Of a stretch of 64,000 nucleotides of DNA, positions 1,303 through 46,601 are shown in pieces; position 1 is the first letter of the stretch, and the number at the start of each line of letters is the position of its first letter. The notes under the pieces are model-generated. The model ran no database searches and had not been told where the DNA came from. It worked only from the letters and a program-made list of their open reading frames with translations. The stretch is from Thermoplasmata archaeon (GTDB lineage Archaea > Thermoplasmatota > Thermoplasmata > Lutacidiplasmatales > UBA184), in the NCBI GenBank assembly GCA_021828195.1, contig JAKASQ010000001.1, positions 233,202 through 297,201 on the forward strand, in the 5' to 3' direction. Both the position numbers and the translations under genes were made by a program.

Positions 1303-1325
1303 ACCTACGTCCACTGTTGTCCCTT

Positions 1326-2523: not shown

Positions 2524-2592
2524 GGTGCGTTCCGTGCGCGCCCCGACCCCGCGGGTCGGATAACGGTGTCCGTCCCCGCCCCCGCGCTCGAC

Positions 2593-2601
2593 TGTATTAA
2601 G
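2593..2601 (+). promoter_or_regulatory. TATA box of the TMEM175-like gene
   Basis: TGTATTAAG is centred 30 bp before the ATG at 2627, again the spacing of a leaderless transcript. Confidence 0.5.
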
Positions 2602-2626
2602 CCGTCCTCGCCCGTGGGCCGGCCGA

Positions 2627-3343: not shown

Positions 3344-3368
3344 GCGGAGTTCGTTCGGGGTTCCTACG

Positions 3369-4526: not shown

Positions 4527-5638
4527 ACGGTCCAGCCGGCGCGATCGAGCAGATCCGCGTCCGAGGCTCGGATGCCTCGTTCGATATCGGCCTCAGCGAG
4601 CGACGGGGAGATCCCTCCCCGACCGCTCGCTCGGACCCGGGCCCTCGCGACGACCGTCGCTCCGATCCCGCGCAGTTCTCGGGTGACGCGGACGAGGACA
4701 TCCTCCCCCGAGGGCTCCTCGATCATCGCCATGTGGACGAACCCGAACAGGGCATCGCGCTCTAGCCAGTAGGCGAGATAGTCGCGCAGAGCCCGCTCGG
4801 CGGCAGCTTCGAGTGGCGGCATCCGCGTGGGAGGGGGCCAAACTCCCAACCACGCGCGAACGCCTCCCTTCTCCTGGAGCTCGACCAGTTGCCAGCCGCC
4901 GGCGTGCCCGGCGATCGCGACGGGGCCTAGTCGATCATCGAAGAAGAGCGGCAGGGCCTCCTCCCCCTCCTCGAGTTCGGGAGGATCGTCGACGGGAAAG
5001 TCCGACGAGTCCGGCAGGGGGATCCGTCCGCGCAACGACTCGCGGACCTGGAGCGTCGGTACCCAGAGGCCCTCCCGTTCGAGGGCCCGCTCGACCCGCC
5101 GACCGTCCCGTCGCGCGGATGCCAGGACGCGTCTTCCATCCTGGGAACGGCATCGAGCTTTGGCGCGGCCGAACTCGGTGTCGAGACCGTGGGGCGGTGG
5201 GAGTGCCCGGGAGCTCCCCGGATCTGCGCGACCCGCGATCGAGATGCCGGGACAGGACAGCACCGCCGATGCCTGAAAACGAGTTCCGGCATGGACGATG
5301 ACGGGGAAAACGGCGCACGGGAACGGTCTCGCGGCGTGCACCCGGCAGCGATTCTGGGAGAGGAACTGGCACGCTCCGCCCTGGGGCCGGGCGGCGATGT
5401 AGGTCCCGCCGCGGGCGTCGGAAACGAACGTGCTCTCCGGAGCGATATGCAGAAGCTCGGCCCGCTCGGCTCGATCCACCGCGGGGGTCGCGTAGCAGCA
5501 GAGGCCGCAGTCCGGGCGACAGGCAAACTCGAGCCCTTCCAACAGCGTGGTATCGATCGAGGGATCGATGGTAACCGATGCGTTCACGGAGGGCCCTAGT
5601 TCGACCTCCGTCTTGGGCGTTGCTGTCCGAACCTGCAC
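4517..5638 (-). CDS. YkgJ-family cysteine-cluster protein
   Basis: The N-terminal third contains the Cys pattern of the zinc/iron-chelating YkgJ domain: CRPDCGLCCY at about residues 40-49, CQFLSQNRCRVHAARPFPC about 90-108, and a later SCPG. The rest (about 190-373) is not recognisable to me and contains no membrane segment. YkgJ proteins are thought to bind a metal or Fe-S centre, but their role is unresolved. The start at 5638 is GTG; no internal ATG precedes the Cys motif, so the N-terminus is uncertain. It is divergent from the F1 peptidase and convergent with the deacetylase-fold gene. Confidence 0.7.
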   Translation of the reverse strand: MQVRTATPKTEVELGPSVNASVTIDPSIDTTLLEGLEFACRPDCGLCCYATPAVDRAERAELLHIAPESTFVSDARGGTYIAARPQGGACQFLSQNRCRVHAARPFPCAVFPVIVHAGTRFQASAVLSCPGISIAGRADPGSSRALPPPHGLDTEFGRAKARCRSQDGRRVLASARRDGRRVERALEREGLWVPTLQVRESLRGRIPLPDSSDFPVDDPPELEEGEEALPLFFDDRLGPVAIAGHAGGWQLVELQEKGGVRAWLGVWPPPTRMPPLEAAAERALRDYLAYWLERDALFGFVHMAMIEEPSGEDVLVRVTRELRGIGATVVARARVRASGRGGISPSLAEADIERGIRASDADLLDRAGWTVQL

Positions 5639-5760
5639 GCGGGCCGGGGAGACCGCCGGGATCGGCCTCGTCGTTCCCGACGGCGGCGGCTCTGCGGCCG
5701 GAGCGCATCGGTCGATCGATGGAGCCGCGGGTCGAGCGGATCGGCGCCGGGCATCAGAAA

Positions 5761-5769
5761 GAAATATCC
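5761..5769 (+). promoter_or_regulatory. TATA box of the F1 peptidase gene
   Basis: GAAATATCC is centred 28 bp before the ATG at 5793, which settles that start in favour of longer upstream frames. Confidence 0.55.
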
Positions 5770-5792
5770 TCCGTCGAGCCTCCCCGCCACTG

Positions 5793-6683
5793 ATGACCGA
5801 GGGGTGGCCCGCACCGATGCGCGACGGGCATGTCCGCGTCCTCGGTCACGAGATGTTCTACCGTATCTGCGGCCCGAAGGATGCCCCCGAGACCGTGCTG
5901 TGCATCCACGGCGGTCCGGGGGCGACGCACGATTACCTCCAGCCGTTCGCCGACCTCAGCCGGCACGGATACCGAGTGGTCTTCATGGACCAACTCGGGT
6001 GCGGCCGTTCCGAGCGCACCACCGATACCTCGCTCTTCACGGTCGAACACAATCGGGAGGAGGTGGAGGGAGTCCGGCGCGCCCTCGCCCTCGGCCGCAT
6101 CCACCTCATCGGGTCGAGCTACGGTGGGGCCTTGGTGCTCGCGTACGCGCTGCGCTACCCGGAGCATCTGAAGAGCCTCACCACGGTCGGCGGGCTCGCC
6201 AGCATCCCTCTCGCCGTCCGCGAGATGTGGAAGCTCGTAGACGAGATGGCGAAGGAGGACCGCGATGCGATCTACACGTACGACAAGCTTCACGAGTACG
6301 AGCACCCGGAGTATCTCCGAGCGGTCGAGCACTTCTATCGGCAGTTCGTTTGCCGCTTGCCCGTATGGCCTCCCCTCGTGACCTATTCGTTCGCCGAGAT
6401 CAGCAAGCCGGTCTACAACTACATGAACGGCCCCAACGAGTTCACGATCACGGGCACGATCCGGGACTGGGACATCTCTCAGCGACTCGGCGAGATCCGG
6501 CTCCCCACGCTCGTGACGGGCGGAAAGTACGATGAGGTCACTCCCGCGTGCGCGCGCCAGATCGCCGAGGGAGTTCCCGGCGCGGTCCGCATCGAGTTCC
6601 AGAACAGCTCGCACACCCCGTTCTGGGAGGAGCGAGCCGCGTACCTCGAGGCCGTACGGAGCTTCCTCGATTCGATCACTTGA
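5793..6683 (+). CDS. pip: proline iminopeptidase, tricorn-interacting factor F1 type
   Basis: An alpha/beta-hydrolase peptidase (S33) that removes N-terminal residues from short peptides. In Thermoplasma the F1 factor works with tricorn downstream of the proteasome. Seen here: the oxyanion HGGPG motif (about residue 40), GCGRSE (about 70), the nucleophile elbow GSSYGG (about 109), the highly specific MNGPNEFTITGT block (about 210), a catalytic Asp in GKYDEVTP (about 250) and a His in NSSHTPFWE. These match my memory of Thermoplasma F1 closely, including order and spacing. The 296-residue length is normal. The ATG is leaderless. No tricorn gene is in this window. Confidence 0.9.
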   Translation: MTEGWPAPMRDGHVRVLGHEMFYRICGPKDAPETVLCIHGGPGATHDYLQPFADLSRHGYRVVFMDQLGCGRSERTTDTSLFTVEHNREEVEGVRRALALGRIHLIGSSYGGALVLAYALRYPEHLKSLTTVGGLASIPLAVREMWKLVDEMAKEDRDAIYTYDKLHEYEHPEYLRAVEHFYRQFVCRLPVWPPLVTYSFAEISKPVYNYMNGPNEFTITGTIRDWDISQRLGEIRLPTLVTGGKYDEVTPACARQIAEGVPGAVRIEFQNSSHTPFWEERAAYLEAVRSFLDSIT

Positions 6684-6916
6684 GCCCCACGTCGGCGCGC
6701 GGGTGCTCGAGGGAGCACATTCCTCGGCGTGCGCCAATGGACCGGAGTTCTCACGATGGATGGCGCCACGACTTTGCGGATGATCGGGGTGTCACCTCCG
6801 CGGCGCGCCCCGGTCCGGTCCGCGGGTCAAGCGGCCCCGCCGGAGCGGGCCGACGGGCCGATCCCCCCGGCCTGGTCCCCCTCGCCGGCCCGACGCCGTC
6901 TGCGAATGGGAGCGAC

Positions 6917-6925
6917 AAAGATAAT
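6917..6925 (+). promoter_or_regulatory. putative TATA box before the antiporter gene
   Basis: AAGATAATG lies about 100 bp before the antiporter coding frame, implying a leader of roughly 75 nt. This is unlike most genes here, which look leaderless. Confidence 0.3.
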
Positions 6926-7020
6926 GGCCGGGGCGGTGACGGGATCGTCGGTGGGGGCTTGAGCGGAGCGAGGCCCTTGAGGCACAGGCTCGGCCCGAGC
7001 GACCCGATTCTGGAGATGTC

Positions 7021-8391
7021 ATCCTGAGCGCCATCGTTCCTTCGACCGCCACCATCGCCATCGTTCTTGTCGGGGCCACGGTCCTTCTCGCATTCGCGAG
7101 CGACGCGTTCGCCCAGCGCTTCCGGATCCCCGACGTCCTGTGGTTGATCCTGTTCGGTCTCCTCGCCGGGCCGGTATTCCACTTCGTGCAGCCCGGCCAG
7201 GTCTTGGGGCTCGGCGCGATCCTCGGCACGATCGCGCTGATCATCATTCTGTACGACGCCGGGATCGACTTCAACCCGAGGCAGGCCCGCGAGGTGGGCA
7301 CGGCCGGCTTGCTCCTCGCGATCGGCAGCTACACGATCGCGGTCGGGGTCCTCTTCGCGATCGGTTGGTACGCGTTCGCCGGAGGCGACGTGCTGGTCGC
7401 CCTCCTCTTCGCTCTCTGCCTCGGGGGCGTCTCGGGAGCGGTCGTCCTTCCCATCGCCCGGCGGCTCCACTTCGCGCCCGCGGTGCGCGACACCCTGCAC
7501 CTCGATATGGCGGTCGAGGACACCATCTCGGTTCTCGCGGTCAGCGTGCTGCTCGCCGTTGTCGCCTCACCGAACGGAGGATGGACGTCGGTGGTGCCCC
7601 AAGTCTTACTCCCCCTCCCCGTGGCCATCGCCTTCGGAGTCCTCGGCGGCTTCGTCGCGATCGAGTTCCTATCCCGCTGGCAACGGCGAGTCTATGCCGG
7701 CCTCGCGACGATGGGCATTCTCTTCCTGGTCTATGGGGCAACGCAGGACCTCGGCGGTTCCGGCATCATGGCCGCCTTGATCATGGGGGTCGTGCTCGGA
7801 AACGACGCCTTCTTCCGCCGTTGGCTTCCGCGCTCCACGGGGCGAGATTTCGCCTTCGATCCTTCGGTTCGCCAAGTCCACAACGAGATCGCGTTCGTTC
7901 TGCGAGCGATCTTTCTCGTCATCCTGGGAGTCCTCGTTCCGTTCCAGCCTCTCGGGATCATTGCGGCGGTGGCCGTCATCGTGATCCCGTTCGTTCTCCT
8001 ATGGTCACGTCGGTGGTTCCTGGGACGCCTGGAGGGCCGCAGGCTGATGGAGGCGGGAAACGCACGCCGTCTCGCCGGCCTCTATGGCCGCGGATTGACG
8101 AACGCCGTTCTCCTCGTCCTGGTGATCGCGGTCCTCCCCTCGGCGCAGTCGATCCTCCTTCCTGCATTCCTGATCATCATTGGAACGGACATCATCATGA
8201 CGGTTCTTGTCTTCCTCGAGCCGGTGCCCGAGGACTCGGCGCCCCGTGCGGGAGGAGGCTTGAGCGATCCGCTCGACCCGTTCCGAGCGGCCGCCTATCC
8301 GCCCGTGGAGGCGCGACCCGACACGGCCCCGGCTCTTCCCTCTCCGCGACCGACCCAAGAGCTGCCCGAGTCTCCTCCGGAGCCCGGGTGA
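7021..8391 (+). CDS. cation:proton antiporter (CPA family)
   Basis: A polytopic protein with about 11-12 hydrophobic segments and the Na+/H+ exchanger signature of paired acidic residues: LIIILYDAGIDFN in the fourth segment and LHLDMAVEDTISVLAV later, both NhaP/KefB-like positions. It probably exchanges Na+ or K+ for H+ across the cytoplasmic membrane. The first transmembrane helix is encoded from about 7045, upstream of the first conventional start (TTG, 7144), so the protein must begin earlier. However, the frame from 6940 to 7143 has no ATG, GTG or TTG. An ATG at 7016 lies in another frame and ends after three codons. A non-standard start near 7021-7024 behind the GGAG at 7012 is my best guess. 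The C-terminal tail is Pro-rich. Confidence 0.8.
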   Translation: MLSAIVPSTATIAIVLVGATVLLAFASDAFAQRFRIPDVLWLILFGLLAGPVFHFVQPGQVLGLGAILGTIALIIILYDAGIDFNPRQAREVGTAGLLLAIGSYTIAVGVLFAIGWYAFAGGDVLVALLFALCLGGVSGAVVLPIARRLHFAPAVRDTLHLDMAVEDTISVLAVSVLLAVVASPNGGWTSVVPQVLLPLPVAIAFGVLGGFVAIEFLSRWQRRVYAGLATMGILFLVYGATQDLGGSGIMAALIMGVVLGNDAFFRRWLPRSTGRDFAFDPSVRQVHNEIAFVLRAIFLVILGVLVPFQPLGIIAAVAVIVIPFVLLWSRRWFLGRLEGRRLMEAGNARRLAGLYGRGLTNAVLLVLVIAVLPSAQSILLPAFLIIIGTDIIMTVLVFLEPVPEDSAPRAGGGLSDPLDPFRAAAYPPVEARPDTAPALPSPRPTQELPESPPEPG

Positions 8392-8683
8392 TCGACCGTC
8401 GGGGCGCCTTCCGTCTGCCGAGGGGCCCGTAGGTGCGCCGCTCCTTCGCAGTTCATCGAGGCCATTCGGGGGCTGTTGCGCCGGTCCGAGGGCCGCAACG
8501 CGGCGGATGGAGTGCATTGTAGGACGACCGACCGATCTCTCTCGGATCTCGATGCAGGGCCCGCAACCTTGCCGGCCGAACACGGACCGTCTTCTCACAC
8601 ATTCTGGGAGGATCCGCGACTCCAGGCGATTCCAGTCCGGTAGAGAAGGCTCCGTTCGATCAGCCCGGTCGGGTCCGGGAGGT

Positions 8684-9475
8684 TCAGCCGACGGTCCACC
8701 GGGGCGGGCGTTTCTCTCGGAACGCCTCCCGGGCTTCGCGGTTGTCCGGGCTGTCGCGCAAGGGATCTGCAAGCTCCTGCTCGAGCCGTAGACCTTCGGA
8801 GAGCGGGAGGGCGAGGCCCCCGCGCACCGCCGCGAGGGCGGCTCGCACGGCGCGGGGAGGGTGCGCGGCGATCGCCTCCGCCATCGTCTGGGCTTCCTCC
8901 CGAAGGCGGGAGAGCGGGTACACCTGGTTGACCAGACCTAGGGCCGCGGCTCGCGCGGCATCAATCGGGCGGGCGGTGAGGATCATCTCGAGCGCTACAG
9001 CAGGAGGCAGGGCCCGTGGGAGCCGCTGGGTTCCGCCTTGTCCGGGGATGATCGCCCACCGGACCTCGGGCAGACCGAAGGTGGCGTTCGCGCTCGCGAG
9101 GCGGATGTCGCAGGCCAGGGCGAGCTCGAGTCCACCCCCGAGACAGAGTCCGTTGACCGCGGCGATGACGGGTTTTCCGACCTCGAGGTTCCGGGTGATT
9201 CCACCGATCCCCGGCTCGCGGTTCCAGACCTCGATTCGCTGCCCGGCCGGGGCGTTCCCATAGAAGTCTCCCATCCGATTGATGTCGACCCCGGCGCAGA
9301 AGGCCTTCGTCCCGGCCCCGGTGAGCACGGCCACGCGGAGGCCGTCCTCATCGCGAAAGCGCTTCCAAGCGGCCACCAGGGCAGCGTGGGACTCGGGATC
9401 GATGGCGTTCAGCGCCTCCGGACGATCCAGAGTGATCCAAGCGACGTGCCCGTCGGTCTTGAAACGGAGGGGCAT
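8684..9475 (-). CDS. enoyl-CoA hydratase/isomerase family protein
   Basis: A crotonase-fold enzyme acting on CoA thioesters. The oxyanion-hole motifs are KAFCAGVDIN (about residues 57-66) and GLCLGGGLELALACD (about 108-122). The second catalytic Glu of the hydratases is present in FGLPEV, but the position of the first Glu falls in ASANATF, which has no acidic residue, so simple hydration may be weakened or the activity different. At 263 residues it is standard. It lies on the opposite strand just upstream of the hemerythrin and benzoyl-CoA operon and could serve the lower beta-oxidation-like part of that pathway. That link is inference. Confidence 0.85.
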   Translation of the reverse strand: MPLRFKTDGHVAWITLDRPEALNAIDPESHAALVAAWKRFRDEDGLRVAVLTGAGTKAFCAGVDINRMGDFYGNAPAGQRIEVWNREPGIGGITRNLEVGKPVIAAVNGLCLGGGLELALACDIRLASANATFGLPEVRWAIIPGQGGTQRLPRALPPAVALEMILTARPIDAARAAALGLVNQVYPLSRLREEAQTMAEAIAAHPPRAVRAALAAVRGGLALPLSEGLRLEQELADPLRDSPDNREAREAFREKRPPRWTVG

Positions 9476-9653
9476 GAGCCCGGCACCCCGCCCTGCTTCT
9501 TGGAGTTAACGGCGGGTGAGTTCCGAAGCGATAAGCACGTTCGCGGCCTTTCGGGCCCCGCATGTCCGCTGGACCCGTTAGCTTGATGGGCGGCCCCCGC
9601 CGCCGGTGGGAGCCGGCGGCGGGCACTGCATCCGGCCTTGTGGGGTACGACTG

Positions 9654-10211
9654 ATGGCGACCGGCTATGATCCCATCGCGGTCCTGATGGACGAACACCA
9701 GCGCTTCCTCCGGCGCCTCGGGGAGGTCCGGGCCGATCTTCGGAGACTATCGGAGGAAGGGCGGGGACGCAGGGGATTAGCGATCTCGATGTCCACATTC
9801 GCTGATTTCCTCGCGAAGGATGTGGACGGATTCCACGGGCGAAAGGAAGAGGAGGGGCTCTTCCCGATCCTCGTCCGCCACATCGGGAGCGAAGGCGGCC
9901 CGGTGGGCGTGATGCTCGATGAGCACGAACTCCTGCGCCGCCATCAGAAGACCATCGCACGCAACGTCCCCAAACTCGAGACCGACCGCGAAGCTGTGGA
10001 AGCATGGACCGCGGTCTCCGCTGCCACCGACTCGGTCGACCGCCTCTTGGCGCTTCACATCGAGAAGGAGGATCAGGTCCTCTTCCCGATGGCCCGGGCG
10101 GTTCTCTCTCCGGCCGAGATGTTCGAAGTAGCCCAGATTTGCCAGGAGATCGAAGTTCAGCTCGGGGTAGGCCCCGGGGAAGGGCGGCCCGCGCCCAGGG
10201 ATCTCCGCTGA
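9654..10211 (+). CDS. hemerythrin HHE-domain protein
   Basis: A four-helix bundle with His/Glu ligands for a non-heme di-iron centre: DEHQRF (about residue 13), FHGRKEEEGLFP (about 61-72), MLDEHELLRRH (about 87-97) and ALHIEKEDQVLFPMA (about 139-153). Such proteins bind O2, NO or act in iron handling. An O2-binding or scavenging role next to an oxygen-sensitive benzoyl-CoA reductase operon would make sense but is inference. The chosen ATG at 9654 starts just before helix one. It is 120 bp upstream of oah on the same strand, so it might share regulation with it. Confidence 0.82.
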   Translation: MATGYDPIAVLMDEHQRFLRRLGEVRADLRRLSEEGRGRRGLAISMSTFADFLAKDVDGFHGRKEEEGLFPILVRHIGSEGGPVGVMLDEHELLRRHQKTIARNVPKLETDREAVEAWTAVSAATDSVDRLLALHIEKEDQVLFPMARAVLSPAEMFEVAQICQEIEVQLGVGPGEGRPAPRDLR

Positions 10212-10279
10212 CGAAATGCGTCCGGGTGCGACCCGGGTCGAGATCCCTCCATCTCCACGCGCGACCCCCTAACCGGTAC

Positions 10280-10288
10280 GGGATAACG
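10280..10288 (+). promoter_or_regulatory. weak TATA-like element before the benzoyl-CoA operon
   Basis: GGGATAACG is centred about 48 bp before the oah ATG. The 10212-10331 gap has no better candidate and I see no convincing inverted repeat for a repressor. Confidence 0.25.
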
Positions 10289-10331
10289 CGCATCACCCAC
10301 GAACGGTCTCGCGTGAATCGGATACCGTGGG

Positions 10332-11441
10332 ATGATGAAGGCACGCCCGAAGCAGTCCGAATCCGTGAGCGAACCCGACGTCCTCGCGCCGATGGCACCG
10401 AAGGAAATCGACTTCCGGGACCTCCTCTACGAGAAGCGCGATGGGATCGCCCGCATCACGCTCAATCGTCCCCAGGCGTACAACGCCTACGCGACCGGCA
10501 CGCTTCGGGAGCTTTCCCGCGCGGTCGAAGACGCATCGGTCGATGATGCGATCGGCGTGATCGTCCTCACGGGTGTGGGATCCGCGGCCTTCTGCACCGG
10601 CGGCGACGTCCGCGAGTATGCCGAGCGGTACACCCAACGCCCCCGGGATTACTGGAAGTACATGGGCCTTTTCGAGGGGGCGGTCGAGGCCCTGCTGCGG
10701 TGCGGGAAGCCGACGATCGCAAGGCTCAACGGGATCACCGTGGGCGGTGGGAACGAGCTCCATCTCGCCTGCGACCTGTCGGTCGCCGCGTCCCATGTGT
10801 ATCTCGGGCAGGTCGGCGTGGGCGTCGGTTCGGTGGCCTGCGGTGGCGCCACCCAGTGGCTCCCTCTCGTGGTCGGAGACCGCCGGGCGCGCACCATGCT
10901 GTTTCTCAATGAGCGGGTTCCGGCCCGCCAGGCCCTGGACTGGGGCCTCGTGAGCGAGGTCGCCCCATCGGTGCGACGAGGAACGGAACTTGTCGAAGAA
11001 CCCACGAACGAGCAGATCGACCTCGCGCGCAAGGGGTTGGAAGGCTACCAGATCGACCTCGCACCGCTGGACGCGTCGGTCGATCGACTCTGCCATCGCC
11101 TGCTGGGAATGTTCCCGGAATGCCTTCGGTACACCAAACAACAGGTGAACTTCTGGAAGGAGCTGTCCTGGCACAGCACGGTCGGTCACGGCCGTGAATG
11201 GCTCTCCCTCCACTTCACCGATCGGGAACCCCACGAGGGAATGAACGCGTTCGTCGAGAAACGGCCTCCCGACGTGGCGGGACTTCGTCGTCGCCTCGCA
11301 GAAGGAAAGGGGGCCGAGTTCCTCTTCGGTCGCCCCGTGCGACGCTGCCCGGCCTGCGGGGCCAAAGGACTCCCCGAGGAGTTCGAATTCTGCGGACGGT
11401 GCGGATCCGCTATCGTCTCGCCGACCGCCCCCGGAGAGTGA
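10332..11441 (+). CDS. oah: 6-oxocyclohex-1-ene-1-carbonyl-CoA hydrolase with C-terminal zinc ribbon
   Basis: This enzyme adds water to the cyclic enone-CoA and hydrolytically opens the ring to an aliphatic C7 dicarboxyl-CoA, the ring-cleaving step of anaerobic benzoate breakdown. It is a crotonase-fold protein with LNRPQAYNAY (about 44-53), AAFCTGGDV (about 84-92) and VGGGNELHLACD (about 136-147). The Oah/BamA-specific blocks GSVACGGATQWLP, YTKQQVNFWK and GHGREWLSLHF match the known enzymes as I remember them. Unusually, the last 35 residues hold a four-Cys zinc ribbon (CPACGAKG then FCGRCGSAI). The start is one of two adjacent ATGs. First gene of the operon, 4 bp before bcrB. Confidence 0.93.
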   Translation: MMKARPKQSESVSEPDVLAPMAPKEIDFRDLLYEKRDGIARITLNRPQAYNAYATGTLRELSRAVEDASVDDAIGVIVLTGVGSAAFCTGGDVREYAERYTQRPRDYWKYMGLFEGAVEALLRCGKPTIARLNGITVGGGNELHLACDLSVAASHVYLGQVGVGVGSVACGGATQWLPLVVGDRRARTMLFLNERVPARQALDWGLVSEVAPSVRRGTELVEEPTNEQIDLARKGLEGYQIDLAPLDASVDRLCHRLLGMFPECLRYTKQQVNFWKELSWHSTVGHGREWLSLHFTDREPHEGMNAFVEKRPPDVAGLRRRLAEGKGAEFLFGRPVRRCPACGAKGLPEEFEFCGRCGSAIVSPTAPGE

Positions 11442-11445
11442 TCCG

Positions 11446-12750
11446 GTGTCGGACGTCGTCTCGGCACCCGCGGTTTCCGGGGGAGTCTCGCGGTCCTTCC
11501 TTCGCGATGCCCGCGGCCTCCAGCGCAAGCTCGTCGAGGAGTACTACGGCGCGTTCGCGTCGGTCGACCAACCACGTCGGCCCGTGGCGTACATGCTGGT
11601 CGGAGGAAACCTCACCGAGATCCTTCGCTCGTTCGGCTACGACGTCGTCTTTCCGGAGATCGTCGCGCTCAACTGCGCGATCAAGCACCAATCCCTCGAG
11701 AACATCCTGCACGCCGAGTCGCTCGGGTACGGGCTCGATGTCTGCGGCTACGTGAAGAACGACCTCGGTCTCCAAGACCTCGGTGGGAAGACCTCGTTCG
11801 GCCAGATCCCACGCCCCGACCTGCTCGTCTGCAGCTTCTCGGGCTGCTATGTGTACGTGAAGTGGTGGGAGGCGCTCGCCGAGTCGTACGGCGCCCCGCT
11901 GTTCATGTTCGACGTGCCGTACATGCGGGAGGAGACTCCCCGCCAGGAGGACATCGCCTACCTGGTGAGCCAGCTTTGGGAGCTCGTCCACCTCTTGGAG
12001 AAACGCACCGGGCGTGCGTTCGACATGAACGAGCTCAAGCGGGTTCTGGCCGAATCCCGTCGTGCCGAGGATGGGTGGGTAGAGTTCCTCCGCGCCGGCC
12101 GGCTCCGCCCATCTCCGATCGAGGCCTATTTCGAATCGATCTTCTATATGTTCCCGATCAATGTGCTTCGGGGAACGCCCGGGGCCGCGGACTTCTACGA
12201 CGTGGTGAACGAGGAGGTCCGAGCCCGGGTGCGGGACGGGAACTACCCCCTGCCCGAGGAGAAGTTCCGCGTCCTCGTCGAGGGAGTTCCGCCGTACACC
12301 AACTATCGGACATTCTGGGACTTCTTCCGGAAGTGGGGCGCGGTATCGGTCGTCGCGACCTACCCGAAGGTCGGGGGACTCTTCGACCGCGGCTTCCGGC
12401 ACGACCCGTCCCGGCCGTTCGAGAGCATCGCGGAGTACAGCCTCGGCGCCTACGTGAATCAATCCTGGCCGTTGCGCCGGAAGATCATCGCTGACTACGT
12501 GAAGGAGTACCAGGCGGACGCCGTCATCATCCACGGGATCAAGTCGTGCCGTTCGTTCACGGCCGGTCAGGGCGACCTGAGGGACTGGCTGATCCACGAC
12601 CAGGGGGTGCCCACTCTCTACATCGAGTCCGATCACCAGGACCCCCGATACTTCGCGCCCGCCCAGATCAAGAACCGTATGGACGCCTTCTTCGAATCCC
12701 TTGAGCAGCGCCGGGCCGTGGCGGCCGCGGCGGGGGCCGCCCCCGGATGA
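11446..12750 (+). CDS. bcrB: benzoyl-CoA reductase subunit B (class I)
   Basis: One of the two catalytic-module subunits of ATP-dependent benzoyl-CoA reductase, of the 2-hydroxyacyl-CoA dehydratase component fold. This module receives low-potential electrons from the ATPase module and reduces the aromatic ring to the 1,5-dienoyl-CoA. Features: YMLVGGNLTEILRSFG near residue 50, conserved Cys in LNCAIKHQ, DVCGYVKND and VCSFSGCYVYVK, and the C-terminal IHGIKSCRSFTAGQ, matching the BcrB pattern. The 434 residues equal the usual length. It starts at a GTG 4 bp after oah and its stop overlaps the next start (ATGA at 12747-12750), indicating translational coupling. Confidence 0.9.
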   Translation: MSDVVSAPAVSGGVSRSFLRDARGLQRKLVEEYYGAFASVDQPRRPVAYMLVGGNLTEILRSFGYDVVFPEIVALNCAIKHQSLENILHAESLGYGLDVCGYVKNDLGLQDLGGKTSFGQIPRPDLLVCSFSGCYVYVKWWEALAESYGAPLFMFDVPYMREETPRQEDIAYLVSQLWELVHLLEKRTGRAFDMNELKRVLAESRRAEDGWVEFLRAGRLRPSPIEAYFESIFYMFPINVLRGTPGAADFYDVVNEEVRARVRDGNYPLPEEKFRVLVEGVPPYTNYRTFWDFFRKWGAVSVVATYPKVGGLFDRGFRHDPSRPFESIAEYSLGAYVNQSWPLRRKIIADYVKEYQADAVIIHGIKSCRSFTAGQGDLRDWLIHDQGVPTLYIESDHQDPRYFAPAQIKNRMDAFFESLEQRRAVAAAAGAAPG

Positions 12751-13541
12751 CCGCGGTCGTCGCGGGAGTTGACATCGGCTCGACGACGGCGAAGTGCGTG
12801 GTCCTCGGAGAGGACTCTCGCATCCTCGGCAAATCGCTGAGCGTCGTCGGCGTCGATATCGTGAAGGACGCGGAACGCGCGCTCGAAGCCGCCCTCGCCG
12901 ATGCCCACCTCTCCCGACCCGAAGTGTCGTTTATCACCGGCACCGGATACGGCCGGTACAAGGTCTACTTCGGCCAGCTCGTCGTCACCGAGATCTCCTG
13001 CCACGCACGAGGGGCCAACTTCCTGTTCCCCGGGACGCGCCTCGTGGTGGATATCGGCGGCCAGGACACGAAGGCGATCCGGATCGACGACAAGGGCGAG
13101 GTCGTCGACTTCGCGATGAACGACAAGTGCGCGGCCGGCACCGGGCGATTCCTGGACGTGTGCGCCAACGCCCTGGGGTACGATGTCGGCGAGATCGGGC
13201 CGCTTTCCCTCCAGGCCCGGCGCGCGGTGAAGGTCACGAGCACCTGCACGGTCTTCGCGGAATCGGAGGTCACGTCGTACGTATCGCGCGGCAAGGATCC
13301 GAAGGATATCCTCGCCGGGCTGCACGCCAGCATCGCGAACCGGACGCTGTCCCTGATGCAGCGCGTCGGGGTAGAACCCGAGGTCACGTTCACGGGCGGC
13401 GTCTCTCAGAACGAGGGCATGGTCCACGCTCTCCACCGCCGGCTCGGGGTCCCCGTCAACGTGAGCCCACTCTCGCAGTACCTCGGAGCTCTTGGGGCGG
13501 CGCTCCACGGCCGCGAACGGCTCTCGGGAGGCGCGGCGTGA
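12747..13541 (+). CDS. bcrD: benzoyl-CoA reductase ATPase subunit, BcrD-like
   Basis: An ASKHA-fold ATPase that forms the electron-activating module with its partner and bridges a [4Fe-4S] cluster at the subunit interface. Phosphate motif 1 is GVDIGSTTAKC (about 7-17), phosphate motif 2 is VDIGGQDTKAI (about 102-112), and the cluster Cys are in NDKCAAGTGRF (about 124-134) and TSTCTVFAES (about 162-171). All motifs are intact, as in dehydratase activators (HgdC/CompA). At 264 residues it is BcrD-sized. Coupled to bcrB by ATGA and to the next subunit by GTGA. The A/D designation rests on motif completeness and length only. Confidence 0.88.
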   Translation: MTAVVAGVDIGSTTAKCVVLGEDSRILGKSLSVVGVDIVKDAERALEAALADAHLSRPEVSFITGTGYGRYKVYFGQLVVTEISCHARGANFLFPGTRLVVDIGGQDTKAIRIDDKGEVVDFAMNDKCAAGTGRFLDVCANALGYDVGEIGPLSLQARRAVKVTSTCTVFAESEVTSYVSRGKDPKDILAGLHASIANRTLSLMQRVGVEPEVTFTGGVSQNEGMVHALHRRLGVPVNVSPLSQYLGALGAALHGRERLSGGAA

Positions 13542-14347
13542 TCACCGGCGGCCTTGACCTCGGCGCGGGAGTCATCAAGGGGGTGCTGCTCGAAGACGGG
13601 CGACGCCTCCTTGCGACCGCCTCGGCTCCGTCGCGGGGGATCCCGGTCCAGGCCGCGCGCCATGTGCTGGACACGTTGGGGGAGACGGCGAACATCGCTC
13701 CGGACGACATCGACTACCTCTGCACGACCGGCTTCGGCCGGTACGCGATCCCCGAGCGGAACCTGCAGGTCAGCGACTTCACCTCCTCGGCGCGCGGCGC
13801 CGTCTTCCTCTTTCCCAAGACCCGGCTGGTGGTTGACGTCGGAACGCAGGCCTCCCGGACCATGTCCATCTCCGAGACGGGAAAGGTCCTCAAGTTCAAG
13901 ATGAACGAGAAGTGCGCTGCCGGAGCGGGCCGCTTCGTCGAGCGCTGTTCGAAGTATCTCCAAGTCCCGCTCGAGGAGATGGGCCCGAAGGCGCTCGCGT
14001 CGGAACGCCCGAAGCTCATCTCGAGCGTCTGCGCGGTCCTCGCCGAAACGGAGATCATCAACAACGTCGCGGAAGGCGTCCCGCTCGCGGACATCCTGAT
14101 GGGCGTCTTCCTCTCCCTCTCCCAGCGCGCACACTCCCTCATGCGGTACGTGGGGATCCAGCCAGAGGTCACGCTTGTCGGGGGCCTCGTTCGCAACGTT
14201 GGAATGGTGAAGGCTCTCCACGACACCATCGGAATGGACCTGAACGTGGCGCCCGATGCGTACTATGCCGCCGCTCTCGGCAGCGCGGTCCTCGGGCACG
14301 CCCGGCTCCAGAAGCTCACCACGGCACCGCAGGGAGTGGGGGGATAG
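13538..14347 (+). CDS. bcrA: benzoyl-CoA reductase ATPase subunit, BcrA-like with altered phosphate motifs
   Basis: A second ASKHA subunit, paralogous to the preceding gene. The cluster Cys are kept (NEKCAAGAGRF, about 119-129; SSVCAVLAET, about 157-166). The nucleotide motifs deviate: GLDLGAGVIKG for motif 1 and VDVGTQASRTM for motif 2 in place of DIGGQ. It may therefore bind or hydrolyse ATP poorly and act mainly in cluster binding and dimerisation. Thauera BcrA is much larger (about 48 kDa), whereas this is about 28 kDa, closer in size to the short ATPase subunits of the Azoarcus (Bzd) type. It starts at a GTG overlapping the preceding stop. Confidence 0.85.
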   Translation: MITGGLDLGAGVIKGVLLEDGRRLLATASAPSRGIPVQAARHVLDTLGETANIAPDDIDYLCTTGFGRYAIPERNLQVSDFTSSARGAVFLFPKTRLVVDVGTQASRTMSISETGKVLKFKMNEKCAAGAGRFVERCSKYLQVPLEEMGPKALASERPKLISSVCAVLAETEIINNVAEGVPLADILMGVFLSLSQRAHSLMRYVGIQPEVTLVGGLVRNVGMVKALHDTIGMDLNVAPDAYYAAALGSAVLGHARLQKLTTAPQGVGG

Positions 14348-14349
14348 GC

Positions 14350-15597
14350 ATGCCGGAACTGCTCAAGATCGGGTCCTGGGCGGGGGACCTCCCGGACGGC
14401 GAGGCTCCCGCCGGGATCGAGATCTCGCCGGACTTCCGGGAGTTCACCGAGGCGGAATCCGTCGAACGGATCGTGCACCTCGCCCAGGAGGTCCTCGCCG
14501 ATCCGACGTTCCCTACCGTCCGGGCTTGGCGGACCGCGGGCGGCAAGGCCATCGGGTGCTTCCCGGTCTACACGCCGCAGGAACTCGTCCATTCCTTCGC
14601 GATGATGCCGGTCGCGATCCAGGGCGGCGGAGAGAACCTCGAGATCAGCCGCGCCGACGCGGCGCTCGGCTCCTTCCTCTGTTCGATCTCGAAATCGACG
14701 CTCGAGATGGCCCTCACCGGTCTCCTGGACCCGTTCGATGGGTTCGTCTTTCCGTACATTTGCGACGTCAGTCGCAACCTGGACGGGATCTTCACTCGAG
14801 TTCTCCCGCAGCGACCCTCGCACATGCTTCACCTGCCCCAGAACTTCACCTCGCCGGCCACGATCCCGTTCCTGGTGGCGGAGTACCGCAGCCTCATCGA
14901 GAAGCTCGAACGTGTCGCCGGCCGCCCCTTCTCCCCCGAGGACCTGCGCGCGTCCCTGGAGGTATTCAACGAGCAGCGCGCGCTCGTGGATCGCCTCGTC
15001 GTGCTGAAGCGAGATGCCCCGTGGAAGGTCACGCTGGTCGAATACTACCTTCTGCTCCGGCTGGGGGGCCTACTTCCCCGGGAGGTCCACATCCCGCTGC
15101 TCCGCCGGGCCATCGCCGAGCTCGAAGGGAGGGAGCGAAAGAACAAGGATGCGATCCGAGTGATCGTCCTCGGTCCGTTCTGCGAACAGCCGACCCTCGA
15201 GCTCCTGCAGCTCATCGAAGACGTCGGTTGCTACGTGGTCGGGGACGAGCTCCAGATGCTGCACCGCTGGTGCCCGCGCATCGAACCGGGAACCGATCCT
15301 CTCGAGAGCCTCGCTACGTCGTACGTCCGGACGCCCGTCGACATCGGGGTCCGGAGCACCCCGACCACCAAGGCGGCCGCCATCCTCGCACGCGTCGATG
15401 CGGCGAAGGCGCAGGGGGTGCTCTTCCTCACCGCCAAGTTCTGCGAGCCCGCGCTCGAGGACGTGGTGCTCTACCGAAGGGCCCTCGAAGGGCGGGGCCT
15501 CCCTTACCTGCACATGGAGTTCGAAGAGAAGTCGACCACCTACGAGCAAGCGCGTCTGCAGCTCGAGACGTTCGCCGAGTCGATCCTCTTCGAGTGA
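14350..15597 (+). CDS. bcrC: benzoyl-CoA reductase subunit C (class I)
   Basis: The second catalytic-module subunit, which pairs with BcrB to bind benzoyl-CoA and Fe-S clusters. It has the family layout: a helical N-terminus, AIGCFPVYTPQELVHSFAM (about 68-86), which carries the first conserved Cys, SFLCSISKSTLEMAL (about 111-125), FPYICDVSRNL with a further Cys, GPFCEQPTLELLQLIED in the C-terminal half, and the terminal KFCEPALEDV with LHMEFEEKSTTYEQ, typical of BcrC and dehydratase beta subunits. At 415 residues it is slightly longer than Thauera BcrC. It begins 2 bp after the previous stop and 12 bp separate it from dch. Confidence 0.9.
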   Translation: MPELLKIGSWAGDLPDGEAPAGIEISPDFREFTEAESVERIVHLAQEVLADPTFPTVRAWRTAGGKAIGCFPVYTPQELVHSFAMMPVAIQGGGENLEISRADAALGSFLCSISKSTLEMALTGLLDPFDGFVFPYICDVSRNLDGIFTRVLPQRPSHMLHLPQNFTSPATIPFLVAEYRSLIEKLERVAGRPFSPEDLRASLEVFNEQRALVDRLVVLKRDAPWKVTLVEYYLLLRLGGLLPREVHIPLLRRAIAELEGRERKNKDAIRVIVLGPFCEQPTLELLQLIEDVGCYVVGDELQMLHRWCPRIEPGTDPLESLATSYVRTPVDIGVRSTPTTKAAAILARVDAAKAQGVLFLTAKFCEPALEDVVLYRRALEGRGLPYLHMEFEEKSTTYEQARLQLETFAESILFE

Positions 15598-15609
15598 CCG
15601 AGGGCTACC

Positions 15610-16380
15610 GTGAGCGCGAAACCTCCGGGCACCGTCTCCATCACGCGCGTCGATGGACGTGCGACGATCACCTGGGAGCGGGGACCGGCGAACGTGTTCG
15701 ACACCCGACTCCTGGAGGAGCTCAACCGCGTGCTGCACCGCGAGGAGGTGACCACCGCCCATGTCGTCGTGCTGCGCGGCGGAGGCAAGTCCTGGAGCGG
15801 AGGCCTCAGCGTCGAGGACCACCTCCAGCCCCGGGTCTCCGCCATGTTCGAAGCGTTCCGCACGACCCTCACGACCCTGTGGAACCTGCCCGCCCCGACG
15901 ATCGCCCAGGTCCACGGAAGGTGCCTCGGTGGCGGCCTGGAGCTGCTGATGGCCTGCGACCTCGCGATCGCCTCCGAAGGGGCGACGTTCGGCCAGCCCG
16001 AGATCCGGTTGGGGGTCTTTGCACCGTTCGGAGCCGCCACTTATTCCCATCTCCTTGATCCTCGGTCCGCCGCCGAGCTCCTGTTCTTGGGAACGCCGTT
16101 CGATGCCCCCCGGGCGGCGGCCGCCGGGATCGTCAACCGCGTGGTTCCCGAGGAGGAGCTCGATGCCTCGGTGGCATTGACGGCCCAGACGCTCTGTAGC
16201 TATCGTCGGGAAGCGCTGCACCTGCTCAAGCGAGTCCTCCGAAGGTCGGAGGTGGACCCATGGCCCCGGCTCGCGTACGCCGAGCGGACCTACCTGGACG
16301 AGCTCATGAGAACCGAGGGAGCGGAGGAAGGACTCCAAGCGTTCCTCGAAAAGCGAGCCCCCGTTTGGAAGGACGGTTGA
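15610..16380 (+). CDS. dch: cyclohexa-1,5-diene-1-carbonyl-CoA hydratase
   Basis: A crotonase-fold hydratase that adds water to the dienoyl-CoA product of the reductase, giving 6-hydroxycyclohex-1-ene-1-carbonyl-CoA. Motifs: SWSGGLSVEDHL (oxyanion region, about 61-72), GRCLGGGLELLMACDLAIAS (about 103-122) and FGQPEIRLGVFAPFGA, with one catalytic Glu in QPEI. The 'SVEDH' loop and short 256-residue length agree with Dch more than with fatty-acid hydratases. The specific assignment leans on its place between bcrC and had. The start is GTG. Confidence 0.85.
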   Translation: MSAKPPGTVSITRVDGRATITWERGPANVFDTRLLEELNRVLHREEVTTAHVVVLRGGGKSWSGGLSVEDHLQPRVSAMFEAFRTTLTTLWNLPAPTIAQVHGRCLGGGLELLMACDLAIASEGATFGQPEIRLGVFAPFGAATYSHLLDPRSAAELLFLGTPFDAPRAAAAGIVNRVVPEEELDASVALTAQTLCSYRREALHLLKRVLRRSEVDPWPRLAYAERTYLDELMRTEGAEEGLQAFLEKRAPVWKDG

Positions 16381-16392
16381 GACCGCAGATCC

Positions 16393-17415
16393 ATGCGAGC
16401 GGCGATCTTTCAGGGCTCGGGCCGTCCCCTCATCGTCGGCGAAGTGCCCCGCCCGGTCCCGGGGCCGGGGGATGCCCTCGTGAAGGTGGCGGCGTGCGGC
16501 TTCTGCCATACGGATCTCCATTACCTCGATCACGCCGTCCCGACAGCGAAGGGTCCTCCCCTCATTCTGGGACACGAGATCTCGGGCGTGGTGGAGGAAC
16601 TGGGACCCGGGAGCTCCGTACGGTCCGTCGGGGACCGGGTGCTGGTCCCTTCCGTCCTTCCCTGTCGGAACTGTGAGTATTGTAGATCGGGGCGCGGGAA
16701 CATCTGTCCCTACCTCCAGATGCCCGGTAACCACATCGACGGAGGGTTCGCGGAGTACATCCGAGTCCCGGCACGCGACCTCGTGCCGTTGCCCTCCGAC
16801 CTCAACCTCGCGGCGAGTGCGGTGATCGCCGATGCCCTGACGACGCCGTACCATGCGGTCGTCCGACGAGCGCGAGTGCAAAGTGGGGATTGGGTCGTGG
16901 TGGTCGGATGCGGCGGCGTCGGGATCAACGCGGTCCAGTTCGCGGCCGCGGTCGGTGCGAGCGTGATCGCCGTGGACCTTCGCGCGGAGAAGCGCGAAGC
17001 GGCTCTGCGCCTCGGGGCGTGCGAAGCGCTGGATCCCCGGGAGTGGCCCGACCTCGGTCGCGAGGTGCGGAAGCGATCCGAGGGGGGCGCGGACGTGGCG
17101 CTCGAGGTGGTCGGCACGCCCGAGACCGTAACTCTGGCCCTCTCCACGCTCCGGCGGGGAGGGCGGCTCTGTGTCGTGGGGTACAGCGACTCGGTCGTTC
17201 CAATCCCGCTCCACCGTCTGATGTTCTTCGAGTACGAGATCGTCGGCTCCCTTGGGTGCCGGCCCGTGGACTATCCGCGCGTCATCGAAATGGTGCGGAA
17301 GGGGAGGGTGAGCCTCGACGCGGTCGTCACCGCCACCCTCCCGCTCGATCGGATCGGGGAAGCGGCCGAGGACCTCCGGGCCGGGAAAGGGTTGAGGACC
17401 CTCATCGTTCCCTGA
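16393..17415 (+). CDS. had: 6-hydroxycyclohex-1-ene-1-carbonyl-CoA dehydrogenase
   Basis: A zinc-dependent medium-chain dehydrogenase that oxidises the Dch product to the 6-oxo compound used by Oah, reducing NAD+. Catalytic zinc ligands lie in CGFCHTD (about 35-41) and LGHEISG (about 60), and the structural zinc site is CRNCEYCRSGRGNIC (about 94-108). The Rossmann motif is VVGCGGVGINAVQF (about 172-185). The stretch MPGNHIDGGFAEYI is characteristic of Had-like members as I recall them. Last gene of the operon, with its 3' end overlapping the convergent regulator by 14 bp. Confidence 0.87.
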   Translation: MRAAIFQGSGRPLIVGEVPRPVPGPGDALVKVAACGFCHTDLHYLDHAVPTAKGPPLILGHEISGVVEELGPGSSVRSVGDRVLVPSVLPCRNCEYCRSGRGNICPYLQMPGNHIDGGFAEYIRVPARDLVPLPSDLNLAASAVIADALTTPYHAVVRRARVQSGDWVVVVGCGGVGINAVQFAAAVGASVIAVDLRAEKREAALRLGACEALDPREWPDLGREVRKRSEGGADVALEVVGTPETVTLALSTLRRGGRLCVVGYSDSVVPIPLHRLMFFEYEIVGSLGCRPVDYPRVIEMVRKGRVSLDAVVTATLPLDRIGEAAEDLRAGKGLRTLIVP

Positions 17416-18232
17416 GCACGGCGTGCGTCTCCTCGCCCTCGCGCTCATCCGAGGCGCTCCGGGGACGGTCGCTGGGTGTGGCGCGGCTTCGGACGATCCC
17501 CACCTCGGATCGACGCTGGGAAGCGAGCTTGCGCATGCCACGACGCAGGTTCTCCATGGCCGTCGCGCGGCTGACCCCGAGGGACTTCGCGACATCCTTC
17601 AGCTGGGCCCGGCGCGGGTAGTCGTAGTATCCTAGCACGAGGGCCGTTCCGACGGCCATCTCCTGGCGGGGCGTCAGATCGAGGGACCCACGGAAGGAAC
17701 CGATGCGGACCAGCGAGGCCGGCGAACTGCCCGGTGTGGTGAACGAGGCGAGAAGGGGATGGGCGTCCCGAACCCGATGAACGAGCACCCGCCACTCGCC
17801 CTCGCGTACCTCCCCTTCCTGGACGCCGGCCGAAGGTAGGAAGGGACAGCTCATGCAGATGGCCCCCATCTCGAAGACGGTGTGGCACAGGGCCGGCAGC
17901 GGTCCGACGAGACGGACGAGGAGTCGTTGCGATCCGAGCTGCGTGAGCGAGATCTCTTCGGGGCCGGCCCGTTGGCGAAGGAAGGCCGTGATCTCCGGGA
18001 GGGTCGAGGGGGTCGCGTTGATCTCGAGAAGCTGCAAGAGGCGACGGGGTGGGGCCCCGGCGTGCCGGCAGACGTGGAGACGGACTCCGGCTCCCCAGCG
18101 CGTGCCGAGGTCCTGCATCCAGTGAGGCACGGGGCCGCCCCGGATCCGGAGCTCCACGAGAGCCGGCACGCTGCGGGGCCTTCGCGGGCCTCTTCGGTGG
18201 GGGCGGCGGGTGGATGGGTCGAGAATGCTCAC
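17402..18232 (-). CDS. bacterio-opsin activator (HTH_10) type regulator
   Basis: The C-terminus (about residues 190-250) has the bat-type HTH: DLTPRQEMAVGTALVLGYYD, then RRAQLKDVAKSLGVSRATAMENLRRG. The N-terminal part lacks a recognisable PAS or GAF domain but has a GAICMSCPFLP Cys pair and a CRHAG motif that might bind metal or sense redox state. The GTG start at 18232 overlaps the stop of the upstream gene (GTGA), so the two are coupled. Its position, convergent on had, makes it a candidate regulator of the benzoyl-CoA operon; this is positional inference only. The basic tail after the HTH is not conserved in the family. Confidence 0.78.
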   Translation of the reverse strand: MSILDPSTRRPHRRGPRRPRSVPALVELRIRGGPVPHWMQDLGTRWGAGVRLHVCRHAGAPPRRLLQLLEINATPSTLPEITAFLRQRAGPEEISLTQLGSQRLLVRLVGPLPALCHTVFEMGAICMSCPFLPSAGVQEGEVREGEWRVLVHRVRDAHPLLASFTTPGSSPASLVRIGSFRGSLDLTPRQEMAVGTALVLGYYDYPRRAQLKDVAKSLGVSRATAMENLRRGMRKLASQRRSEVGIVRSRATPSDRPRSASDEREGEETHAVLRER

Positions 18233-18582
18233 GTGGTCCTTCGCGGTTCCGGTTCCACGATGGGGCCGGGAGGGAGGGGAAGCAGGCGATACTCGCGAAG
18301 GCCGGTCCGTGCGTCTTCGAAGAACACCGCGCGAAGGACCTCCTCCACCAAGATCAACTCGAGTCCGCGCGGATCCATCCTCCTTCTGGCCCTCGTGAGG
18401 ACCCACCGTTCTGGATCCGGGTCGTGTAGTGGGACTCCGATCCGCGTGAGGGTCCAGAGTCGCGGAACGAGCGCGAGCTGTCCGGCGAATCCCTCGACGA
18501 GCGCGCCGTGCGCGAGCTGAAGATCTGCCCGAATTGCCCAAGTGACTTCACGTCCTGTGGGGACCGGGTGCCGAACGGTCAC
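18229..18582 (-). CDS. hypothetical protein coupled to the bat-type regulator
   Basis: I do not recognise this 117-residue protein. It has an alternating pattern suggesting a small alpha/beta domain (EVTWAIRADLQLAHGALVEG, then RRRMDPRGLELILVEEVLRA, then REYRLLPLPPG). There is no signal peptide or membrane helix. It starts at GTG, and its TGA overlaps the GTG of the regulator gene, so the two are translated together and may form one regulatory unit, for example a sensory partner. Confidence 0.55.
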   Translation of the reverse strand: MTVRHPVPTGREVTWAIRADLQLAHGALVEGFAGQLALVPRLWTLTRIGVPLHDPDPERWVLTRARRRMDPRGLELILVEEVLRAVFFEDARTGLREYRLLPLPPGPIVEPEPRRTT

Positions 18583-46521: not shown

Positions 46522-46601
46522 GTTCCACCAGTAGCAGAAGCCAGAGAGCGAGCGGTGTGCTTGTCTATACATCTTGCGTGACACGACGTATTCGTCACCC
46601 G

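Follow-up and report, generated by a model that had tools for sequence, protein, structure and literature searches.

A probable class I aryl-CoA reductase operon, with genes for ring opening, in the chromosome of a Thermoplasmata archaeon

We describe a seven-gene operon, at positions 10332-17415 of a 64,000-nucleotide stretch of Thermoplasmata archaeon DNA (assembly GCA_021828195.1, contig JAKASQ010000001.1, positions 233,202 to 297,201; hereafter the window), that very probably encodes a class I aryl-CoA reductase of the benzoyl-CoA reductase (BCR) or 3-methylbenzoyl-CoA reductase (MBR) type, together with three enzymes carrying its product to ring opening. A sequence-only reading of the window had proposed a complete class I, that is ATP-dependent, upper-pathway operon of seven overlapping or closely spaced genes in a Thermoplasmatota chromosome, and this proposal is supported by the best-matching NCBIfam models, by matches to the solved reductase MbdONPQ, by the tree of BcrB and by gene order. 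The genes lie on one strand in the order oah-bcrB-bcrA-like-bcrD-like-bcrC-dch-had, separated by no more than 12 bases or overlapping by four, and Pfam and NCBIfam assign the expected superfamily to each of the seven proteins. As the same reading had remarked, no gene for a ferredoxin, a benzoate-CoA ligase or a transporter lies within the operon. Its members are:

10332..11441, + strand: oah; TIGR03200 at 206.6 bits, top of 72 models (cut-off 464); C-terminal zinc ribbon
11446..12750, + strand: bcrB, active-site subunit of HGD-D fold; TIGR02260 at 334 bits (cut-off 486.6)
12747..13541, + strand: bcrA-like ATPase/activase, alpha type, short; TIGR00241 at 276 bits, above cut-off; 4-bp overlap with bcrB
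13538..14347, + strand: bcrD-like ATPase/activase with GTG start; TIGR00241 at 186 bits, above cut-off; 4-bp overlap with bcrA
14350..15597, + strand: bcrC, second HGD-D subunit, ATG at 14350; TIGR02263 at 273 bits (cut-off 421)
15610..16380, + strand: dch; TIGR03189 second (130 bits), a generic enoyl-CoA hydratase model first (136 bits); conserved position in the operon
16393..17415, + strand: had; TIGR03201 at 277 bits, best model (cut-off 338.7)

Searches with BcrC started from the frame at 14344, and the BcrC residue numbers used below are accordingly 2 too high relative to the ATG at 14350.

The identity of the four reductase subunits is indicated by profile and structure matches. Pfam assigns BcrB and BcrC to HGD-D and the two ATPases to BcrAD_BadFG, and the best solved-structure match of every subunit is the 3-methylbenzoyl-CoA reductase MbdONPQ, above the dehydratase HadBC, two dehydratase activators and BzdNO. 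Thus BcrB scores 219 bits with MbdO, 140 with HadB and 109 with BzdO, and BcrC scores 259 with MbdN, 168 with HadC and 92 with BzdN; a class I enzyme of the BZD type was considered and rejected, its scores being far below those of MbdO and MbdN. An AlphaFold model of BcrB (mean pLDDT 89.9) has MbdO as its first Foldseek match by E-value. The first ATPase (12747) matches the alpha subunit MbdQ at 306 bits versus 189 for MbdP, retains an intact DIGGQDTK motif, and aligns with the 432-position BcrA model at 211-429 only. The second (13538) matches the delta subunit MbdP at 194 bits, about level with MbdQ at 192, carries DVGTQASR at the place of DIGGQDTK, and prefers the BcrD model TIGR02261 (161 bits) over the BcrA model TIGR02259 (118). 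Because the first thus fits an alpha subunit and the second prefers the BcrD model, the labels "bcrD-like, bcrA-like" of the earlier gene order were swapped, and the actual order is bcrA-like followed by bcrD-like. In both ATPases the cysteine of KCAAG and a later S/T-x-C cysteine, which we take to be cluster ligands, align with those of MbdP, MbdQ and the two dehydratase activators.

Residues were compared in BcrB and BcrC. The cluster cysteines C100, C134 and C368 of BcrB and its catalytic Glu, E71, align with C95, C128, C380 and E65 of BzdO, whose roles are set out in PMC11971306. Three further BcrB positions, S395, N410 and F416, are common to BCR-like and MBR rows (position 410 differs in one of 47 bacterial rows), and HadB, BzdO and rows resembling 2-hydroxyacyl-CoA dehydratases (HAD-like) differ there. 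In BcrC, C113, C140 and C367 occur in all rows; C280, found within GPFCEQPT in the window and within the general pattern GxFCEQPP, is kept in 15 of 15 window-like rows, in the other archaeal rows (3 of 3, 2 of 2 and 3 of 3), in 43 of 43 bacterial rows and in both MBR rows, and appears in the alignment neither in HadC nor in BzdN.

Trees were drawn from alignments in which a 75% coverage filter had removed none of 72 BcrB rows and five of 72 BcrC rows. The BcrB tree of 59 rows omits 25 earlier rows (L099, which duplicates L035, and 24 bacterial rows) and adds seven of the 11 low-scoring loci L022-L032, namely those on the + strand, among which L023 proved MBR-like. Drawn from its midpoint, it groups the window with MbdO, L052, L023 and the BCR-like rows (support 100/98), outside which fall six HAD-like rows of the phylum Thermoplasmatota, HadB, BzdO and a plasmid HAD-like row. 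Within this group MbdO joins L052 and L023 rather than the window. These two are MBR-like loci in other Thermoplasmatota families, and stand with MbdO at 100/100. Among the best 80 of 526 confirmed stretches, which formed the wider set of relatives, the nearest BcrB kin outside the phylum are from Heimdallarchaeota and the archaeon Dive96, 59-61% identical and joined at 100/99. A quick BcrC tree, supported by the Shimodaira-Hasegawa-like approximate likelihood-ratio test (SH-aLRT) only, recovers the same archaeal group at 97, with MbdN and L052 adjoining it at 96, and the sole HadC row forms a long, unplaced branch.

The C-terminus of Oah, CPACG-AKGLPEEFEF-CGRCG, forms a zinc ribbon, with DUF7577 and DZR matches below their cut-offs and a model pLDDT of 81-86 at residues 341-360; all matches among the 50 rows shown for the structure model are generic crotonases. 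In a survey of L033-L052 and L062-L132, in which some best "oah" matches were dch copies (L049, L083, L118) or cut (L088), the ribbon was present at every window-type locus with an oah match, in L035/L099, in L050 and in three Asgard or Dive96 rows, as well as in Acidobacteriota, Chloroflexota, Fidelibacterota and two Planctomycetota rows, at identities of 50-61% overall (38% for L050). A ribbon-less branch (33-37% identical) holds the same operon place in Ignavibacteriota, Bacteroidota, other Planctomycetota and L052; we assume that this is the canonical Oah, the set containing no characterised Oah, and a structural or protein-contact role for the ribbon would be a guess. The Oah of Heimdallarchaeota and Dive96 groups with that of Acidobacteriota, and the approximately unbiased (AU) test of a history shared by Oah and BcrB gave p 0.007 with L035 outside the group, 0.028 with it inside and 0.037 with it removed. 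This may hint at a mosaic origin of Oah and BcrB, and at most hints, because the group was named after the BcrB tree had been seen and long branches are in play. Had finds its best PDB matches in 7quy (207 bits) and 7qul (206), both named as the same enzyme as Had, followed by an alcohol dehydrogenase at 196. Bcr, Oah, Had and Dch together make up the upper-pathway set, Dch being placed there mainly by its position in the operon.

The operon is conserved well beyond this genome. All seven genes keep the window's order in 13 of 20 related stretches (oah being cut in L039), and two more agree in order, L040 lacking a dch match and L048 being cut at dch. The remaining five differ: in L035 bcrC lies between oah and bcrB, the type in L049-L051 is a second, diverged one, and that in L052 is a third, which resembles MBR. 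In another genome (L043) the seven proteins are 94-98% identical to those of the window. Ratios of dN/dS were 0.07-0.18 against L037, L044 and L048, the cut dch of L048 aside (where a value of 0.73 carries no meaning), and 0.20-0.38 against L033, a more distant relative; the operon genes are under purifying selection. The arrangement is hence not a product of chance, given the retained order and the low dN/dS against close relatives. A crotonase often stands beside the operon in relatives. Across the wider 80 loci, related genes occur in Heimdallarchaeota, Acidobacteriota, Chloroflexota, Planctomycetota, Ignavibacteriota and others, mostly with bcrC before bcrB.

Within the host order, BcrB is found in 35 of 106 genomes and Oah (E <= 1e-60) in 31. 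Both occur in 30 genomes, BcrB only in five, Oah only in one and neither in 70 (Fisher p 4e-20, not corrected for kinship); the Oah of the single Oah-only genome is fragmentary and lies where a contig ends. Of the genomes with BcrB only, three (G040, G287, G389) belong to genus g2, and the two examined carry the second type (L050, L051). This diverged bcrBADC type (L049-L051), with BcrB identities of 41-43%, belongs to genus g2 of the same family, and genome G101 has both types. A separate observation concerns the Rokubacteria/Tectomicrobia loci L106, L107, L113, L119, L129 and L131, some of them on short stretches, where bcrB lacks its usual neighbours or the ATPases lie several kb away.

The host is archaeal, as seen from an archaeal-type TFIIB gene at window positions 1317-2303, from the length of the contig (799,357 bases, within a genome of 1,623,510 bases, 93.6% complete with 0.03% contamination), and from near relatives titled Thermoplasmata archaeon; the bacterial contig that would have undone the earlier proposal did not materialise. 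SubAcS9-61 (L063), a genome in the Lutacidiplasmatales paper PMC9287336, has a BcrB 79% identical to that of the window, and on this relation the host order is probably Ca. Lutacidiplasmatales (Thermoplasmatota). A placement in order RBG-16-68-12 (Angelarchaeales/Yaplasmales) was also considered and set aside in its favour. PMC9287336 describes Lutacidiplasmatales as aerobic to facultative. The genome contains a heme-copper oxidase family gene (PF00115, 478 bits) and no match to the PF00384 enzyme. PF00115 is matched in 94 of the order's 106 genomes (93 above cut-off, some matches in the order being low-scoring or cut) and in 33 of the 35 with BcrB; presumably the family also covers nitric-oxide reductases. 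Since this oxidase is not enriched in genomes with BcrB (33 of 35 versus 61 of 71, p 0.33), nothing ties it to BcrB beyond coexistence.

For the rest of the pathway the genome offers candidates only. It holds three AMP-binding genes: a FadD-like gene, an acetate-CoA ligase above cut-off, and L135, whose top match is an ATP-dependent acyl-CoA ligase model and which scores 213 bits against the benzoate-CoA ligase family, where the cut-off is 375. None of these three was found beside operons in 70 loci. An ADP-forming-type acyl-CoA synthetase (L146, of which a 139-residue part was scanned) and an oxidoreductase alpha gene are some 2 kb apart. Two 2-oxoacid:acceptor oxidoreductase alpha genes are above cut-off, and a 73-residue open frame has a dicluster ferredoxin motif and scores below every ferredoxin cut-off. 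There are six acyl-CoA dehydrogenase matches, five of which were scanned. L141 is best on an acryloyl-CoA reductase model (377 bits) and reaches 303 bits on the glutaryl-CoA dehydrogenase model (cut-off 470). L135, L146, the oxidoreductases, the ferredoxin-like frame and L141 may accordingly be regarded as candidate components. The whole-genome search suggested earlier thus yielded ferredoxin-like, oxidoreductase and glutaryl-CoA-type candidates, and no ligase above the benzoate cut-off.

That the operon encodes instead a 2-hydroxyacyl-CoA dehydratase of amino-acid fermentation we consider very improbable. The fold is held in common, the HGD-D family includes both, and the HadB and HadC models do match the window's subunits (163 and 181 bits); BCR models and MBR structures nevertheless score far higher, two different ATPase genes are present, and oah, dch and had lie in the operon. 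This comparison of model scores is able to go either way, because the HAD-like row L026 prefers the HadB model (227 versus 160 bits). A place of BcrB and BcrC among the dehydratases had been named in advance as the outcome fatal to the proposal. BcrB falls outside them, at 100/98; the place of BcrC in its tree is unsure, there being one HadC row only, and for this subunit the case is carried by the scores and by C280, which HadC lacks. By scores, BcrB tree and C280 alike, then, the window's enzyme stands apart from the dehydratase family.

More room remains for a physiological substrate that is a substituted aryl-CoA (methyl-, hydroxy- or halobenzoyl-CoA) handled by the same class I chemistry, which is possible if rather unlikely, and which overlaps the proposed function, since that already allows simple analogues. 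The nearest solved structure of all four subunits is a 3-methylbenzoyl-CoA reductase, the ATPases are both short like MbdP and MbdQ and align with the BcrA model in its later part only, MbdN and L052 adjoin the archaeal group in the BcrC tree, and no ligase exceeds a benzoate cut-off. Yet the structural match is biased, because no BCR-type tetramer was among the structures searched; the BCR model TIGR02260 gives 334 bits; and in the BcrB trees MbdO keeps company with L052 and L023. It is scarcely likely that an aryl- or alicyclic-CoA enzyme serves a different metabolic direction here, such as the making or use of alicyclic acids: the acyl-CoA dehydrogenase L145 is best on a cyclohexanecarboxyl-CoA dehydrogenase model, but at 214 bits it is far under the cut-off of 575, oah and had fit ring opening, and an ATP-driven enzyme would be odd for the reverse. 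Least credible of all is a cryptic remnant or a binning artefact, which the patchy distribution (35 of 106 genomes) might suggest, and which is opposed by the 799-kb contig, the nearby archaeal TFIIB, the 94-98% identity of the L043 proteins and dN/dS of about 0.1.

Several observations nonetheless weigh against a class I aryl-CoA reductase operon as proposed. The seven proteins miss the cut-off of every benzoyl-CoA-pathway equivalog model and pass only the general activase model TIGR00241, and because all pathway-specific NCBIfam models fall short, the exact aryl-CoA substrate can be suggested only indirectly. The TIGR02260 cut-off is likewise missed by all nine BCR- or MBR-like relatives that were tested, and we therefore do not regard it as defining; within the phylum 46 of 389 genomes match this model, none above cut-off, with 20 matches at 314 bits or more. 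Comparing folds could not tell BCR from HAD, since the BcrB model fits HadB and MbdO about equally well (Foldseek TM 0.86/0.93 and 0.88/0.87, respectively). The three cysteines and the Glu of BcrB are identical in every alignment row, HAD rows included, and hence speak for competence without discriminating. The catalytic His131 of BzdO corresponds to Tyr137 in the window (Tyr in 40, Phe in six and Thr in one of the 47 bacterial rows), and three of the six [8Fe-9S] ligands of BzdN (C36, C263, C293) are unmatched in the window's BcrC, MbdN likewise lacking them; C280 may replace one of these. Dch matches its own model less well than a generic one (130 versus 136 bits), and its 41 PDB matches name other hydratases and no Dch. 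No benzoate-CoA ligase above cut-off was found by profile scan of the genome. The trees were built without the characterised BcrABCD of Thauera aromatica, Rhodopseudomonas and Ferroglobus and without a characterised Oah. Finally, BCR is oxygen-sensitive, according to PMC4992971, while a heme-copper oxidase family gene is present in the genome and PF00384 has no match there.

A class I aryl-CoA reductase with ring-opening enzymes remains the preferred account, and by analogy with characterised class I enzymes its course can be sketched. Electrons from reduced ferredoxin would enter at a [4Fe-4S] cluster that bridges the two ATPases, BcrA and BcrD; hydrolysis of ATP would drive them to clusters of BcrC and thence to the three-cysteine cluster of BcrB, and BcrB would dearomatise benzoyl-CoA, or a simple substituted analogue, to the 1,5-dienoyl-CoA. 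Dch would then hydrate the dienoyl-CoA, Had would oxidise the resulting alcohol, and the zinc-ribbon Oah would open the ring by hydrolysis to 3-hydroxypimelyl-CoA, to be finished by beta-oxidation enzymes elsewhere in the genome. Gene content, order and conservation, the ligand and Glu residues, the place of BcrB in its tree and the co-occurrence of Oah with BcrB are observed; from these, we infer the substrate, ATP dependence, direction, electron donor and each catalytic step. Most likely the host is facultative and uses the route at low oxygen.

Anaerobic opening of the ring is among the key steps by which lignin-derived and pollutant aromatics are turned over, and a complete ATP-driven pathway in about one third of the genomes of an archaeal order from acid soil and mine drainage would widen the range of possible ring-openers in soil. 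The sequence-only reading had held that a Thermoplasmatota host would extend the range of class I reductases. This part is not supported, as class I bcr genes in Thermoplasmata were already in print: earlier papers report them in Thermoplasmata and Bathyarchaeota, with oah, dch and had among metagenome-assembled genomes (PMC6472368, 2019), bcrABCD in Ca. Yaplasmales (PMC9239135, 2022), and bcr in Hermodarchaeota, with Heimdallarchaeota and Lokiarchaeota counted (PMC8163825). A literature search, mostly outside subscription papers, found no report of the benzoyl-CoA pathway in Lutacidiplasmatales, and the main text of PMC9287336 has no word starting with benzo, aromatic or bcr. One of the papers listed, PMC5648843, contains benzoyl-CoA and a TMEG name, each a single time. 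In a separate search for a zinc-ribbon Oah, none of the 20 papers listed out of 760 had the Oah term, which does not prove its absence; this divergent form may escape marker surveys based on other sequences. The enzyme family itself being known, the interest that remains lies in a host that apparently respires oxygen, in how the genes are distributed and in the zinc ribbon of Oah, and an oxygen-sensitive reductase in such a host poses a testable physiological question. It is conceivable, though on balance doubtful, that an oxygen-respiring, acid-dwelling order without molybdopterin-dependent respiration performs class I ring reduction under micro-oxic conditions, with oxygen handling of the hemerythrin type encoded next to the operon in some genomes, and that zinc-ribbon Oah marks an unrecognised branch across archaea and several bacterial phyla.

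Three genes flank the operon in the window:

17402..18541, - strand: HTH_10 regulator-like gene; PF04967 at 64.8 bits; tail to tail with had
9606..10211, + strand: hemerythrin-like gene; PF01814 at 60 bits; directly upstream of oah
8684..9475, - strand: crotonase, divergent; PF00378 at 201 bits; possible beta-oxidation enzyme

An HTH_10-like neighbour recurs, on either side, at part of the relatives, and a hemerythrin-like gene lies upstream in eight of the 21 order-like loci whose upstream sequence extends for at least about 0.8 kb. Farther off, the window contains a histone-deacetylase-family gene (3261-4526, 252 bits) and large open frames with marginal or no Pfam match at 33074-35638, 44650-46719 and 47387-50239. 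Elsewhere in the genome, L158 (G000:C3:15001-35000, positions 1989-18021) holds HdrC-, HdrB- and HdrA-like genes, a second HdrC/QmoC-like gene, and lipoate-protein-ligase-like and DsrE2-like genes, all below cut-offs, beside AprB (178 bits) and AprA (929 bits), both above; we take this cluster to resemble sHdr-type sulfur oxidation with APS reductase.

Among known systems, HadBC with its activator has the fold, the three-cysteine site, the Glu and an ASKHA activator in common with the window's enzyme, but lacks S395, N410 and F416 of BcrB and C280 of BcrC; 2-hydroxyisocaproyl-CoA dehydratase uses a single activator. The class I BCR of the TIGR02260/2263/2259/2261 type, presumably the Thauera-type naming, supplies the top models for BcrB and BcrC and likewise has oah, dch and had alongside, whereas the window scores below every cut-off, its first ATPase covers only 211-429 of the A model, its operon has no ferredoxin gene, and its bcrC follows bcrD. 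The bcr genes of Ca. Yaplasmales and deep-sea Thermoplasmata, given in PMC9239135 and PMC6472368, represent the same phylum and the same pathway genes but another taxonomic order; in Yaplasmales bin292 (L083) BcrB is 54% identical, lies on another branch, and the gene order is C-B-A-D-dch-had. The Heimdallarchaeota (L080, L081) and Dive96 (L079) loci have the zinc-ribbon Oah in common with the window but do not place bcrC after bcrD. MbdONPQ of Thauera chlorobenzoica (PDB 9g87/9gai), although 31% identical over the BcrB model and on a separate branch in the trees, is alike in its four subunits, its two short ATPases, the cluster cysteines of its B and C subunits and the cysteine corresponding to C280 of BcrC.

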